Source of the DNA: Lacrimispora sphenoides JCM 1415
Lineage (GTDB): Bacteria; Bacillota; Clostridia; Lachnospirales; Lachnospiraceae
Direction of reading: 5' to 3'
Length of the DNA stretch: 64,000 nt
NCBI RefSeq assembly: GCF_900105615.1
Contig: NZ_LT630003.1
Coordinates: 2,108,001 to 2,172,000 of the forward strand
Part shown: in pieces, positions 8,324 to 38,421 of the stretch
Numbering within the stretch: position 1 is the first letter of the stretch
Layout: the number at the start of each line of letters is the position of its first letter
Position numbers and translations under genes: made by a program
Notes under the pieces: generated by a model
Databases searched by the model: none
What the model was told of the DNA's origin: nothing
The model's input: the letters and a program-made list of their open reading frames with translations, nothing else

Positions 8324-9217
8324 TTAGAAAGAAGGAACTACCGCACCTTCGTAGGTGTCTTCGATAAACTTTTTAACGGTATCGCTTGTTAAAGCCTCAA
8401 CAAGAGCTTTGGTCTTCTCGCTGCTTTCCTCACCTGAACGAACCGCAATAATATTACTGTAAAGGGTTGCTGCTACAGACTTTGCATCTTCCACAGCAAG
8501 AGCATCGGATACCTTTAAGCCTGCCTCAATGGCGTAGTTTCCATTGATAACAGCCACATCCACGTCGCCTAAAGAACGGGGAAGCTGAGCAGCTTCCACT
8601 TCAACGATCTTAAAATTCTTATCGTTCTTTACAATATCATTCTTGGTTGCATCCAGCTCAACGCCTTCTTTTAATCCGATCAGACCCTGGTCTGCCAGTA
8701 AAAGAAGAGCTCTAGCTTCGTTGGAAACATCATTTGGGACTGCGATCTGGGCTCCGTCAGCAAGCTTATCAATAGAATCTGTCTTTCCTGCGTAAATGCC
8801 GAAGGGTTCATAATGAATGGCTGCCGCACTTACAAGATCGGTTCCTTTCTGCTCATTGAACTGATCCAGGTATGGCTTGTGCTGGAAATAGTTGGCATCT
8901 AAGTCCCCGGATTCAAGAGCCATGTTTGGCTGCACGTAATCCGTATATTCCTTGACTACCAGCTCATAGCCTTTTTCTTTTAAAATATCCTTTGCAGCAT
9001 TTAAAATCTCTGCATGAGGAGCCGGAGTTGCTCCAACAATGATCTTCTCCAGCTGACCGGTCGTTTCAGCTGCCGTTGATTCTTCTGCTTTTGTTTCCTC
9101 TGATGATGCAGCCTGGGTTGCTGCAGGTGTTGCGGGCGCTTCCTTACTTCCTGCACATGCTGTCAGCGCTGCTGCTGCAACCAGTGCAGCCGAAAATACA
9201 TAAAGTGACTTTTTCAT
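8324..9217 (-). CDS. metQ: D-methionine ABC transporter substrate-binding lipoprotein MetQ
   Basis: Lipoprotein of the NlpA/MetQ family, 297 residues, lipobox LTAC (Cys21), then an Ala/Thr/Glu-rich linker and the binding domain (VGATPAPHAEIL, DYVQPNMALESGDLDANYFQHKPYLDQF). It binds L- or D-methionine outside the membrane and delivers it to MetI. It is the last gene of metN-metI-metQ, and a convergent terminator lies just downstream. Confidence 0.95.
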   Translation of the reverse strand: MKKSLYVFSAALVAAAALTACAGSKEAPATPAATQAASSEETKAEESTAAETTGQLEKIIVGATPAPHAEILNAAKDILKEKGYELVVKEYTDYVQPNMALESGDLDANYFQHKPYLDQFNEQKGTDLVSAAAIHYEPFGIYAGKTDSIDKLADGAQIAVPNDVSNEARALLLLADQGLIGLKEGVELDATKNDIVKNDKNFKIVEVEAAQLPRSLGDVDVAVINGNYAIEAGLKVSDALAVEDAKSVAATLYSNIIAVRSGEESSEKTKALVEALTSDTVKKFIEDTYEGAVVPSF

Positions 9218-9263: not shown

Positions 9264-9929
9264 CTATTTAACCCGTTTGTCGCTTTTTTTGGATAATTTC
9301 ATTCCGGTTTCCTGAATGATCTGGACGATGATCACAAGGATCGCGACTGTTACAAACATCATCTGTGTCTGATAACGGTAATATCCATATCGAATCGCAA
9401 TATCACCAAGACCGCCGCCGCCTACAAATCCGGCCATAGCGGAATAGGATAATATGGTTGTTACGGAAAGTGCTGCTCCTACCAGGAGGGAAGGCTTTGC
9501 CTCCGGGAGGAGAACCTTACATATAATTTGAAACGTAGAGGCACCCATGGATTTCGCCGCTTCTATCACACCGCTGTCCACTTCCTTAAATGAAGACTCC
9601 ACCACTCTTGCAACATATGGTGCTGCCGCTATTACTAAAGGCGGAATCACGGCCTTTGGTCCCAGAAGCGTTCCAACAATCATTTTTGTAACGGGTATTA
9701 CCATAATAAGCAAAATAATAAAGGGTATGGAGCGGAACAAATTGATAACAAGTCCCAAAACCTGCTGGAGCCAGGGGATTGGATGGATTCCATCTTTATC
9801 TGTAACAATTAGTATAATACCCAGAGGGATACCGATAAGATAAGAAAAAACGGAAGATGTCAGCGTCATAAACAAAGACTCTCCTATACCGGTAATAAGC
9901 ATTTGTATCGTTGTCGCATCAAAGGTCAT
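9264..9929 (-). CDS. metI: Methionine ABC transporter permease MetI
   Basis: 221-residue permease with five predicted membrane spans and the EAA loop (VIEAAKSMGASTFQIICKVLLPEA). It forms the channel of the methionine importer. Its start overlaps the end of metN by 11 bases, with GAGGAGGTG inside metN as ribosome binding site, indicating translational coupling. Confidence 0.95.
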   Translation of the reverse strand: MTFDATTIQMLITGIGESLFMTLTSSVFSYLIGIPLGIILIVTDKDGIHPIPWLQQVLGLVINLFRSIPFIILLIMVIPVTKMIVGTLLGPKAVIPPLVIAAAPYVARVVESSFKEVDSGVIEAAKSMGASTFQIICKVLLPEAKPSLLVGAALSVTTILSYSAMAGFVGGGGLGDIAIRYGYYRYQTQMMFVTVAILVIIVQIIQETGMKLSKKSDKRVK

Positions 9930-10941
9930 GTTTCTTCACCTCCTCATGTGTAATCCCTGCTGTTTTTAAATAACTAAGCACCCGGTTCTGGTCAACTTCA
10001 TTATCCGGAAGCTGAATGACCATCTGTCCCATAGCGGTTCCGTTAATATCTCTGGTTTCGGCATGCATAATGTTCACCGGTACCTTACAGGCTAATATCA
10101 TATTGGCGAGGACCGGCTCAAAGGAAGACCGTCCGTCAAAGGAAATCCGGACTCTTCTGGAGCCGCCGAAACGGCTGACTTGTTCCGCCGCTTCCCCTAA
10201 TATAAGCTGTCTGCCGATTTTTGATTTTGGCTCAGAGAATATTTCCTTTACGCTTCCCACTTCTGCAATATGGCTCTGGTCAATAATCGCTACCCGGTCA
10301 CAGATTGCTTCTATTACTGACATCTCATGGGTGATAACAACCACAGTTACTCCCATGGACTTGTTAATATCTTTTAAAAGTCCAAGTATGGACTTTGTAG
10401 TGTTTGGATCCAACGCACTTGTGGCTTCATCGCAAAGGAGAACCTTTGGATTGGTTGCCAGGGCTCTTGCTATGGCTACCCTTTGCTTCTGCCCACCTGA
10501 GAGCTGAGACGGATAAGCCTTGGCCCGGTCCTTAAGACCCACGATTTCCAAAAGCTCCATGGCTCTTTTTAACCCTTCCTTTTTGGGTGCCTTGGCGATT
10601 TCCAGCGGAAAGCACACATTCTGAAGAACGTTCCTTTGAGCCAGCAGGTTGAACTGCTGAAAAATCATGCCCATGGACTGTCTGGCCAGTCTCTGCTCCT
10701 GCGGCCGCATGGCGGTCAGGCTCTTGTTTTCAAAAAGTACATCTCCTGATGTCGGTATTTCTAAATAATTGATACAGCGGACCAAAGTACTTTTTCCGGC
10801 TCCGCTTAAACCGATAATTCCAAATATCTCTCCCTGTTCTATGGACAGGTTGATATCGTCTAGGGCCTTAATCGGGCCGCCTGTGGTACGAAACTCTTTT
10901 CCCAGTCCCACCAGCTGAATAATAGGTTCTGCTGACTGCAT
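9919..10941 (-). CDS. metN: Methionine ABC transporter ATP-binding protein MetN
   Basis: 340-residue ATPase: Walker A GLSGAGKST (44-52), signature LSGGQKQR, Walker B LLCDEAT, and a C-terminal NIL regulatory domain (about 265-340) that in characterised MetN proteins binds methionine and inhibits transport. The ATG at 10941 is preceded by AAAGGAA at good spacing. The open frame continues upstream through the leader terminator, so a longer start is not credible. It is the first structural gene after the Met-rich leader peptide and terminator. Confidence 0.95.
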   Translation of the reverse strand: MQSAEPIIQLVGLGKEFRTTGGPIKALDDINLSIEQGEIFGIIGLSGAGKSTLVRCINYLEIPTSGDVLFENKSLTAMRPQEQRLARQSMGMIFQQFNLLAQRNVLQNVCFPLEIAKAPKKEGLKRAMELLEIVGLKDRAKAYPSQLSGGQKQRVAIARALATNPKVLLCDEATSALDPNTTKSILGLLKDINKSMGVTVVVITHEMSVIEAICDRVAIIDQSHIAEVGSVKEIFSEPKSKIGRQLILGEAAEQVSRFGGSRRVRISFDGRSSFEPVLANMILACKVPVNIMHAETRDINGTAMGQMVIQLPDNEVDQNRVLSYLKTAGITHEEVKKHDL

Positions 10942-11017
10942 TTGTCTATTTCCTTTCATTATTATTGCCCATCTTTCTGAGCATAATGGAATTTCTGTAG
11001 GGTGTTTTTTAAGGTAC

Positions 11018-11051
11018 AAAAAGGCCGCAAGCCCTGCACAGACTTGCGACC
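11018..11051 (-). terminator. Intrinsic terminator in the metNIQ leader
   Basis: On the minus strand GGTCGCAAG and CTTGCGGCC pair (one G-U) around an 11-base loop and are followed by TTTTT. It lies between the leader peptide stop and metN, where an attenuator terminator is expected. I could not identify a convincing antiterminator by eye. Confidence 0.75.
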
Positions 11052-11113
11052 TAAAATTTCCGCGTATTGCTGCTCTCAGCGAATTCCAATCACAATCCAT
11101 ACAAATGAAACGA

Positions 11114-11209
11114 TTATCGTATTTTTATGCACTCTGATACACGACACATCATCATACACATGCCGTTCATCTTGTTCATATTCATCTGCATGGCTCTCCA
11201 CTGGTTCAT
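11114..11209 (-). CDS. Methionine-rich leader peptide of metNIQ (31 codons)
   Basis: The ATG at 11209 has GGGAGGAG 8 bases upstream (11218-11225), a near-ideal ribosome binding site. The 31-codon peptide holds nine Met (positions 1, 7, 9, 11, 14, 17, 19, 20, 21) and three Cys (18, 22, 27), with the run MCMMMC at 17-22. The stop is followed 62 bases later by an intrinsic terminator, then by metN. This arrangement suggests ribosome stalling at Met codons when charged Met-tRNA is scarce, allowing read-through into the methionine importer. The amino-acid match between peptide and operon is the main support. The alternative is a small metal-binding peptide. Confidence 0.7.
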   Translation of the reverse strand: MNQWRAMQMNMNKMNGMCMMMCRVSECIKIR

Positions 11210-11229
11210 GGCAGCTACTCCTCCCACTG

Positions 11230-11252
11230 ATTCCTATAGGCAAACTAGGAAT
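11230..11252 (-). promoter_or_regulatory. Hairpin ahead of the leader peptide
   Basis: ATTCCTA and TAGGAAT form a perfect 7-bp stem with a 9-base loop, beginning about 10 bases into the transcript and ending 4 bases before the GGGAGGAG site. It may protect the RNA 5' end or modulate leader translation. Confidence 0.45.
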
Positions 11253-11267
11253 TACTTTATGAGGCGT

Positions 11268-11296
11268 ATTTTACGCTCTCTTCCTGTTTTTGTCAA
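11268..11296 (-). promoter_or_regulatory. Sigma-A promoter of metNIQ
   Basis: Minus strand TTGACA, 17 bases, TAAAAT. Transcription would start near 11261 and cover the hairpin, leader peptide and terminator before metN. Confidence 0.8.
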
Positions 11297-11330
11297 TACA
11301 TATTTTAAAATTTGAAATAAAAACCTAATT

Positions 11331-12734
11331 TTATGAACATAAGTCTACAATCACCTGCGCGAATATCTTTGCGCTTACAATCAGTTCGTCAATGACTGCA
11401 TACTCATCAGCTCCATGCATCCGGTTATCTGTCCCCGGCATGGAAGCGCCGAAGGCAACGCCGTTCTTTAATTCATGGACATAGGTACCGCCGCCCATGG
11501 ATACACACTCTCCCTTGCGGCCCGTATAGCTTTCATAAGCACTGAGCAGGGTCTTTACAAATTCCGAATTTCCATCCACATGATGAGGAGGCTTCATGGA
11601 ATCATTGTGAAGGGTAAAGCCCTTTTCCGCCATGTTTCTTCTTACCACTAAAAGGACATTCTCCTCAGTCGCACAGACCGGACACCGGCTGTCAAAGGTA
11701 CCCTCTAAACCGGATTCTGTCACCTTTAAGAGACTGAATGCCAGAGTCAGGCTGCCGGAAAGCTCATCTTCCATTTTTATTCCCAAAGCATCTCCTGAAG
11801 TATCCCCATGAGGGATCAGCTCCAGAAGGCGGCGGATCATGATCATCTGTTCGCATTCGGCCAGAGGAAGCTCTGTTAAGAATAAAAGAAGTCCGGTCAG
11901 GGCGTTATTACCCTCTTCAGGAAGAGAGGCATGAGCACTTTTACCGATTGCAGTTATGATGGCTGTATCTTCATCCAATTTCAGTTCAAAGCGGATTCCC
12001 GTCCTTTTTTCACACTCTGCCGCTGCATGTTCAAGAACTTTTGCATCGAGGCCTGTCACAACTGCACTGGCCTTTCCAGGAACCACGTTTACTTTGGTTC
12101 CGGCCTCTACGCTCACCAGTTTTGGAAGCTGGTCAGAAGCTGCCCATTCTGCGGTGAAATGGCCGTTTAAGCCACCCTTTTCCGTATTCACAACCGGGAA
12201 GGAGCCGTCAGGCGAAAAGGTCATCGGTGCTTCCTTTTCTATGGCATAATAATGGGCGATATCTGAGCTTCCGCACTCTTCGTCTGTTCCCAGAATCAGC
12301 CGAACATTTTTATTAAGGGGTATATTCAACTCTTTTACAGCTCTCATGGCATAAAGAGCTGCAACAGCCGGGCCCTTATCATCTGCGGTTCCCCTGCCGA
12401 ATAGTTTATCTCCCTTTACTACAGGCTCAAAAGGCTCTGTCTCCTTCCAGCCTTCTCCTGCAGGCACCACATCAAGATGGGCCAGGATATCAAGCTGGCT
12501 CTCCTTGTCGTTTAAATCTGCCGTTCCAACATAATTATCATAATTGGTAATGGAGAAACCATAGGATTCCGCAATATCCAGCGCTTCATTCAAAGCTTCA
12601 AACGCTCCCGGTCCATAGGGCATCCCTTCCCTGTAGGGCATCTTTTCACTGTTAATGCGGCACAGCGTACAGATGTCTTCTATCATTTCCTGCTTATGTG
12701 ACTCTATATATTCTTCTATTTCTTTCCTATACAT
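11331..12734 (-). CDS. M20 family dipeptidase, Sapep/PepV type
   Basis: Cytoplasmic zinc dipeptidase of 467 residues that would split dipeptides taken up or made during protein turnover. Metal ligands and catalytic residues of the M20 family are visible: H86 and D88 in LAHLDVVP, D118/D119 in GTADDKG, E152/E153 in GTDEECG, and the C-terminal MHGADEY motif. The length matches Sapep/PepV rather than the shorter ArgE group. It lies 18 bases downstream of yqeY. The metNIQ promoter lies just past its stop codon. Confidence 0.88.
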   Translation of the reverse strand: MYRKEIEEYIESHKQEMIEDICTLCRINSEKMPYREGMPYGPGAFEALNEALDIAESYGFSITNYDNYVGTADLNDKESQLDILAHLDVVPAGEGWKETEPFEPVVKGDKLFGRGTADDKGPAVAALYAMRAVKELNIPLNKNVRLILGTDEECGSSDIAHYYAIEKEAPMTFSPDGSFPVVNTEKGGLNGHFTAEWAASDQLPKLVSVEAGTKVNVVPGKASAVVTGLDAKVLEHAAAECEKRTGIRFELKLDEDTAIITAIGKSAHASLPEEGNNALTGLLLFLTELPLAECEQMIMIRRLLELIPHGDTSGDALGIKMEDELSGSLTLAFSLLKVTESGLEGTFDSRCPVCATEENVLLVVRRNMAEKGFTLHNDSMKPPHHVDGNSEFVKTLLSAYESYTGRKGECVSMGGGTYVHELKNGVAFGASMPGTDNRMHGADEYAVIDELIVSAKIFAQVIVDLCS

Positions 12735-38110: not shown

Positions 38111-38421
38111 AAAAAAAGCCCTCTGCATCGTTGGGATGCAAAGGGCGAATCAACGCGGTACCACCTTTGTTCATATGACAGAGCCTGCCATATCTCATAT
38201 AGCCTATAACGCAGCCACACGTGAAAGCCTACTGAATTACAAAATTTCAGCCTTCCGGTTCAGAAGCTACCTTCCGCATACACTACCTTAACCGTCTTTC
38301 AGCCGGTGAACGGTTTTCTCTTTCAGGGTTATAAGCGTACTCCTCTTCTTCTCTACCTTTTCCTTGTTCTTGCCCATGTTTTTTGAGCATATAGGTATAC
38401 CCGCAGGGTATTTCCTTATAC
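38111..38421 (-). promoter_or_regulatory. T-box leader of valS with intrinsic terminator
   Basis: The conserved antiterminator sequence AAAGGTGGTACCGCG is at 38154-38168 and can disrupt the terminator GCCCTTTGCATC/GATGCAGAGGGC (38118-38146) followed by seven U. A stem I region with GCTGAAAGAC-like distal loop lies at about 38240-38340. The valine specifier could not be fixed with certainty; GTA and GTG triplets occur in AAGGTAGTGTATGCGG. Confidence 0.88.
38371..38416. repeat. Double-hairpin repeat unit, copy A
   Basis: TGCCCA...TGAGCA then GGTATACCC-GCA-GGGTATTTCCT. It matches the repeat family at 45.6, 53.5, 57.4 and 58.1 kb. Here it lies at the very 5' end of the valS T-box transcript. Confidence 0.6.

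Follow-up and report, generated by a model that had tools for sequence, protein, structure and literature searches.

Organization of the metNIQ leader region

The window, that is, the whole stretch of 64,000 nucleotides of Lacrimispora sphenoides JCM 1415 analysed here, carries a metNIQ transporter operon on its minus strand. Pfam analyses revealed ABC_tran and NIL, BPD_transp_1, and Lipoprotein_9 domains in the products of metN, metI and metQ, respectively. MetN, MetI and MetQ were also the best NCBIfam names for these three products, all scoring under their curated cut-offs; PepV, the name obtained for the product of the upstream gene, scored over its own. The leader that we describe lies between the stop codon of this PepV-like dipeptidase gene (11331) and the ATG of metN (10941), on the same strand. 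All of its elements were found there in the order in which the original prediction had placed them (promoter, hairpin, Shine-Dalgarno sequence, ORF, terminator and metN), including the TTGACA-17-TAAAAT promoter and the 7-bp hairpin (Table 1). The count of nine Met and three Cys in a 31-codon peptide, encoded from 11209 to 11114, was likewise correct, and translation of this ORF, rich in the amino acid of the operon, is predicted. The run MCMMMC at residues 17 to 22 had been credited with five Met or Cys residues; all six are Met or Cys.

Table 1. Features of the metNIQ locus of L. sphenoides, in positions of the window.
Feature	Positions	Strand	Basis
Sigma-70-type promoter, TTGACA-17-TAAAAT	11268..11296	-	TTGACA at 11296-11291, 17-nt spacer, TAAAAT ending at 11268
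5' hairpin AUUCCUA/UAGGAAU, 7 bp	11230..11252	-	Sequence, pairing
Shine-Dalgarno sequence of the leader ORF, GGGAGGAG	11218..11225	-	Sequence
Leader ORF, ATG...TAA, 31 codons plus TAA, predicted peptide MNQWRAMQMNMNKMNGMCMMMCRVSECIKIR	11114..11209	-	Sequence, coding constraint
Region 1, CCAUGCAGAUGAAU, from the end of codon 6 through codon 10; candidate partner of region 2 (protector helix)	11180..11193	-	Pairing, leader-shuffle control
Region 2, UUUCAUUUGUAUGGAUUGUGAUU, starting 3 nt past the stop codon; candidate partner of region 1 or region 3	11088..11110	-	Pairing
Region 3, GGUCGCAAGUCUGUGCA, terminator 5' arm and loop; candidate antiterminator partner of region 2	11035..11051	-	Pairing
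Intrinsic terminator, 13-bp stem, 5-nt loop, T-run to 11018	11022..11052	-	Terminator scan, covariation, controls
metN, ABC ATPase with C-terminal NIL domain, ATG at 10941	9919..10941	-	Pfam/NCBIfam
metI, permease	9264..9929	-	Pfam/NCBIfam
metQ, NlpA/MetQ lipoprotein	8324..9217	-	Pfam/NCBIfam

Taken alone, the promoter scan (5 sites, compared to a mean of 3.4 in shuffled sequences) and the terminator scan (3 compared to 2.3) gave results close to chance. The part that exceeds chance is the leader ORF, as judged by comparing metN upstream regions of the family with their dinucleotide shuffles (see below). The hairpin that precedes the Shine-Dalgarno sequence is aligned and kept across the genus, and can be recognized by eye in some other genera.

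The leader is shared by Lacrimispora and many related Lachnospiraceae

Of 25 genomes of the genus Lacrimispora, 24 carry the leader, that of L. sphenoides included, and the one in which it is missing is 67% complete. Each of the 24 combines a Met-rich ORF with a match to the promoter pattern TTGACA-N16-18-TA...T. We built a sequence-only model, R1, from 21 of these leaders, and obtained matches (E≤0.01) in 26 of 397 family genomes. Upon inspection, 21 of the 26 proved to be a Met-rich ORF preceding metN, again counting L. sphenoides, and one (L063) precedes a metQ-like gene instead. Among the remaining matches, L054 is a metN locus with a promoter and a terminator and no Met-rich ORF, and L060, L061 and L064 look like chance. 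In L063, the Met/Cys-rich leader (approximately 1070-1149) stands before a gene for a metQ-like lipoprotein and has a terminator-like hairpin of its own.

MetN itself was matched (E≤1e-70) in 187 of the 397 family genomes, and we surveyed the regions upstream of the best 100 of these matches (99 genomes), which are the best-scoring part and not a random sample. An ORF with a Shine-Dalgarno sequence and at least six internal Met codons occurred in 31 of these 100 regions; the same filter returned none in 20 rounds of dinucleotide shuffling and none on the reverse strand. The leaders concentrate at the loci closest to our own: 23 of the 31 belong to the 24 loci at which MetN identity reaches about 69%, and 8 to the other 76, most of which must be under some other control.

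In the best 80 of the 566 named relatives that a scan of genome contigs gave, Met/Cys-rich leaders precede metN at 72 loci, 71 recovered by the ORF filter and one (L228) by eye; the latter was missed by the Shine-Dalgarno filter and is labelled 'none' in its row of the MetN tree. The leader-bearing groups are Lacrimispora, Hungatella, Enterocloster and other Lachnospiraceae. Four of the leaderless loci among these 80 (L188, L226, L230 and L240) carry a T-box. L217 and L225 have kept promoter-like and terminator-like sequences without a Met-rich ORF, L225 being the same place as L054 and L117. These two are possible cases of natural loss of the sensing part, for which low constitutive expression of metN would be predicted. 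L205 has no Met-rich ORF upstream of metN, and L227 offers only 230 bases of upstream sequence.

At the scale of the class, MetN was matched in 93 of 245 genomes, and 40 upstream regions were taken: 39 from outside the family, with L259 contributing only 160 bases, and one from the second MetN match of the L. sphenoides genome. Three of them (L248, L249 and L256), from three families outside Lachnospiraceae, combine a Met/Cys-rich ORF, a Shine-Dalgarno sequence, a promoter-like sequence and a terminator. No sequence relation to the L. sphenoides leader is visible in any of the three.

Within the L. sphenoides genome, a DNA search for further copies of the leader gave only weak matches off the locus (next best E 0.74), and the pattern ATGATGATGTGY found one extra match, a 19-residue frame within a long ORF of another frame. 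No Met-rich leader was seen in the 700 bases checked upstream of the second MetN match (43% identity). Our surveys began from MetN, free-standing copies being sought only with model R1 and this one pattern, and the regulon is limited to metNIQ as far as we claim it, a wider one being neither claimed nor excluded.

The leader ORF is maintained as a Met- and Cys-rich coding sequence

We reduced 86 leaders (71 from named relatives and 15 from the family set) at 0.80 similarity to 57 non-redundant ones, among which the doubtful leaders L102, L120 and L135 were kept. For each ORF the start codon that gave the most Met was chosen, as a result of which 5 of the 57, the L. sphenoides leader included, were counted from GTG or TTG. 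The predicted peptides are about 36 residues long and contain 5 to 13 Met (mean 9.4) and at least one Cys (mean 3.3). Past the first residue, Met amounts to 24.0%, a figure due in part to the choice of these ORFs for Met, and Cys to 9.4%, a figure free of that choice. Since Cys is enriched beside Met, the leader may respond to both sulfur amino acids.

All 57 peptides contain a Met-Cys dipeptide and 28 contain MCR, with variable length and spacing. In an alignment of 25 chosen peptides, one Cys position never varies, and more than 90% of the peptides keep the Met preceding it. Peptides as unlike as MNRFATTTMNMDMMMCGMMMCRAVIRVCG and MRKLHTTTSMMSMMYGMCSNMMCCTEIHMQLLS share the Met/Cys-rich composition. 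Nucleotide changes within the genus follow the pattern of a coding sequence: when 21 genus leaders were compared with the reference over codons 7-31, only two indels were observed, of 9 and 3 nt, both of which keep the frame, while all indels in the linker after the ORF are of 1-2 nt. The pN/pS ratio, calculated over the same codons for the 19 genus leaders without ORF indels, was 0.31. On these sequence comparisons, the leader ORF is conserved as coding sequence and its Met/Cys content is kept as the peptides drift, which bears out, for divergent relatives, the original expectation that Met codons would persist across relatives and other positions would not.

All 17 leaders that contain MQMN encode its Gln as CAG and its Asn as AAT, a uniformity, among related leaders, that is expected if region 1 must pair.

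A covarying terminator and two helices predicted to compete with it

Between the leader ORF and metN stands an intrinsic terminator. Covariation was counted, for this helix and for the antiterminator, in 29 of the 57 leaders, chosen for the canonical motif and spacing. In this selection, 9 of the 13 terminator pairs and 35 cells are changed on both sides, a score attained by 0 of 500 shuffles, slid versions of the helix giving at most 13 cells; covariation thus argues strongly for a conserved terminator. A terminator with E≤-12 follows the ORF in 53 of the 57 leaders, compared to 18 of 65 leaderless metN upstream regions and 3 of 57 mononucleotide shuffles.

Two further helices would compete with it. 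Region 1 is complementary to the element just past the stop codon (region 2), and UGUAUGGAUUGUGAUU of region 2 could form a singly bulged helix with the terminator 5' arm and loop (region 3). The three helices, namely the 1:2 protector, the 2:3 antiterminator and the terminator, are mutually exclusive.

In the 29 selected leaders, 84.5% of antiterminator cells are paired, compared to 30-52% for slid versions, and this was equalled by 1 of 500 shuffles. Compensation in this helix does not exceed the slid control (6 pairs and 8 cells changed on both sides, compared to 3-6 pairs and 5-18 cells). Six such pairs were reached by 16 of 500 shuffles and eight cells by 20, the further pair types were reached by 149 of 500, and most of the changes are wobbles. 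Over all 57 leaders, duplexes between cognate linkers and terminator arms outperformed swapped ones (0 of 20000 permutations), with a median rank of 20 of 57 for the cognate linker on its own arm. The evidence is weak for single sequences, whose duplexes are often unremarkable against shuffled linkers (z < -2 in 11 of 57, mean z -0.88), and no clear 2:3 helix was seen in the divergent leaders L092, L102, L120, L135, L239, L241 and L244. As for the protector, its columns hardly vary within the genus. Among 28 selected sequences, region 2 is paired more with the real leader than with a shuffled one (0.46 compared to 0.23, in 25 of 28), and availability of the antiterminator is lower with the real leader (0.25 compared to 0.45, in 23 of 28). 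Computational support for the 1:2 and 2:3 helices is moderate and comes partly from selected sequences.

Minimum-free-energy folds of five leaders retained the terminator in nearly every state, even when the part covered by a ribosome was removed. Antitermination must therefore be kinetic, and for this reason we modelled transcripts that end before the terminator 3' arm instead. The 28 leaders used were chosen from the 57 for canonical motif or spacing and are related, so that p-values would overstate the result; the sizes used for the ribosome footprint are approximate. Mean modelled pairing of the antiterminator was 0.25 without a ribosome; a ribosome stalled at internal Met codons brought it to 0.64 and one on the stop codon to 0.43, the last value falling to 0.22 when the upstream RNA was free to pair. 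Stalling increased pairing over the ribosome-free state in 27 of the 28 sequences, a result favoured by the design of the stalled states, which omit the RNA upstream of the ribosome and by that omission alone free region 2.

T-boxes occupy the place of the leader in some relatives

Methionine genes of Firmicutes have mostly been described as controlled by S-box or T-box RNAs, the S-box being usual (available text of PMC4239095), and the original prediction that neither motif is present here withstood an Rfam search of positions 10900-11340, in which no match was obtained even at E≤5. An S-box (RF00162), a T-box or any other Rfam element was thereby ruled out for this leader. Neither a T-box nor a SAM element was found in 20 leader-bearing loci of the family. 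The same search returned two T-boxes in 20 leaderless family loci and, in 39 of the 40 class upstream regions, T-boxes in L265, L269 and L270 and SAM-I elements in L283 and L284. Read by eye, the T-box specifier is AUG in the four named relatives given above as well as in L083, L106, L265, L269 and L270.

A tree built from the 80 MetN proteins places the T-box rows together with L227 in one group (support 99/93), which lies beside leader-bearers within a larger group (99/95). In this metN clade the leader was likely replaced by a T-box; since the tree is drawn from the midpoint, it does not prove the direction of the replacement.

A model for attenuation of metNIQ and its alternatives

We propose that the leader is very probably a ribosome-mediated, trp-type transcription attenuator of metNIQ, whose input would be the charging of tRNA-Met and perhaps also of tRNA-Cys. 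As RNA polymerase makes the leader, a ribosome would translate the Met/Cys-rich peptide behind it. When charged Met-tRNA is ample, the ribosome would reach the stop codon and leave, allowing region 1 (codons 7-10) to pair with region 2; region 3 would then be free and the terminator (3:4) would form before metN. Under a shortage of Met-tRNA, and possibly of Cys-tRNA, the ribosome would pause on Met codons with region 1 covered or melted, 2:3 would pair, no terminator would form and metNIQ would be transcribed. In this scheme we infer that the ribosome pauses at Met codons, which signal is sensed and how strong the response is. The leader anatomy, the coding constraint, the conservation of Met/Cys and the covariation of the terminator can be read in the aligned sequences. 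A severe shortage of formyl-Met would be expected to switch the attenuator off through failure of initiation. That the leader is a leader-peptide attenuator for methionine, as first predicted, is supported by the kept Met codons, the lack of a SAM or T-box match and the competing helices, which the first prediction had not described, with the qualification that the signal may be Met together with Cys. Enrichment in Cys would be compatible with joint sensing of both or with an effect of the nascent chain.

Nascent-chain arrest leaders such as TnaC and SpeFL usually have an invariant motif whose spacing from the stall site is constant. The metNIQ leader could be of this sort if its C-terminal Met-Cys stretch stalled the ribosome in response to a small molecule, be it methionine, SAM or a thiol, and the Met-Cys dipeptide common to all leaders, the invariant Cys and the end of the Streptomyces lividans metL peptide, ...CMCRRMCAF (available text of PMC8079986), are in keeping with it. 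However, MCR is confined to about half of the leaders, length, spacing and most residues drift at a Met count that stays between 5 and 13, and the AUG-specifier T-boxes found before metN argue for tRNA charging, which leaves arrest improbable in our judgement.

The strong nucleotide conservation of region 2 and of the terminator loop within the genus would suit a protein- or metabolite-binding RNA element, such as a new riboswitch, in which the ORF is incidental. This conservation is explained by the pairing with regions 1 and 3, no Rfam family matches the leader, and the frame-keeping indels, the low pN/pS ratio and the unlike yet Met-rich peptides found elsewhere indicate that the ORF matters, so we give such an element very little credence. 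It is more improbable still, to the point of being scarcely credible, that a functional small protein is encoded before metNIQ by happenstance. A Met/Cys-rich composition would suit soft-metal binding, for instance of Cu(I), and the ORF is conserved as coding sequence, but it precedes metN (or, in L063, a metQ-like gene) and is nearly always followed by a terminator, its length and the spacing of its potential ligands vary, and T-boxes occupy its place in some relatives.

The preferred reading of a tRNA-sensing attenuator might extend to a widespread, fast-evolving class of leaders in Clostridia that sense Met and Cys jointly, have arisen or drifted repeatedly and exchange with Met T-boxes. 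We regard this extension as tentative and rather doubtful. Joint sensing is suggested by ORFs that were picked for Met alone and invariably carry Met-Cys, and repeated origin or drift by the Met/Cys-rich leaders of three other families, which show no visible sequence relation and each have a terminator.

Relationship to known leaders and riboswitches

The trp, his and leu attenuators of Proteobacteria resemble the metNIQ leader in having an amino-acid-rich leader ORF, mutually exclusive helices and an intrinsic terminator before the operon. The metNIQ leader differs from them in its amino acid (Met, with Cys), its transporter operon and its clostridial host; we claim no sequence relation.

A methionine leader-peptide attenuator had been presented as unusual and little described in this group, and for Clostridia this agrees with the full-text literature searched, outside which most subscription papers lie: no methionine leader peptide was found there for Clostridia or Lachnospiraceae. 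It does not extend to bacteria at large, as a leader peptide upstream of metNIQ, metL, has already been proposed as an attenuator in S. lividans (PMC8079986, as far as its text was available). Both peptides contain Met and Cys and lie upstream of metNIQ. According to the same portion of that report, metL has a leaderless transcript start, 29 residues with 3 Met in all and no typical Rho-independent terminator, in contrast to the Lacrimispora leader with its 9 Met, Shine-Dalgarno sequence, strong terminator and competing helices. Attenuators of this kind are also reported in Firmicutes: according to the accessible parts of two papers, leader peptides for His precede hisS/hisZ in Bacillus (PMC2965389), and Staphylococcus aureus has a Leu-rich attenuator peptide (PMC5794164); these are of the same kind, with other amino acids and genes. 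Leader peptides for Cys have been predicted for cys operons of Mycobacterium (PMC1262725) and for cysS of Rhodobacterales (PMC8632094), again from partial texts. The kind of attenuator is thus known, and its specificity for Met is apparently new to Clostridia.

A T-box with an AUG specifier before metN has in common with the leader the gene, a presumed tRNA-Met input and transcription antitermination; it binds the tRNA directly, with no peptide, and is absent from the L. sphenoides leader. A staphylococcal met operon carries a T-box that binds initiator tRNA (available text of PMC3771891). The S-box (SAM-I), also absent here, senses SAM. If our model is true, a Met sensor read by the ribosome adds another way of sensing Met shortage in Lachnospiraceae and gives a possible function to dozens of small ORFs. 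Since leader peptides and T-boxes are found at equivalent positions upstream of metN within a single MetN tree, these loci could serve as a natural system for how regulatory RNAs swap sensors. The recurrent Met-Cys step raises the testable question of joint Met/Cys sensing.

Other regulatory RNAs and gene arrangements

The only Rfam match over threshold in the window is a T-box at 38138-38362 on the minus strand (108.5 bits), and the gene downstream of it, recognized by eye, is presumably valS. One SAM-I match was obtained in the L. sphenoides genome (150 of 373 candidates scored), elsewhere than in the metN leader, and is followed by a gene that we take to be metK. In one relative, the leader ORF is separated from metN by a Clostridiales-1 RNA (L077:458-629; RF01699, 121.6 bits). 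Upstream of the leaderless metN of L130, L136 and L138, ORF fragments resemble by eye the end of a cysteine synthase, which suggests cysK-metN operons at these three loci.
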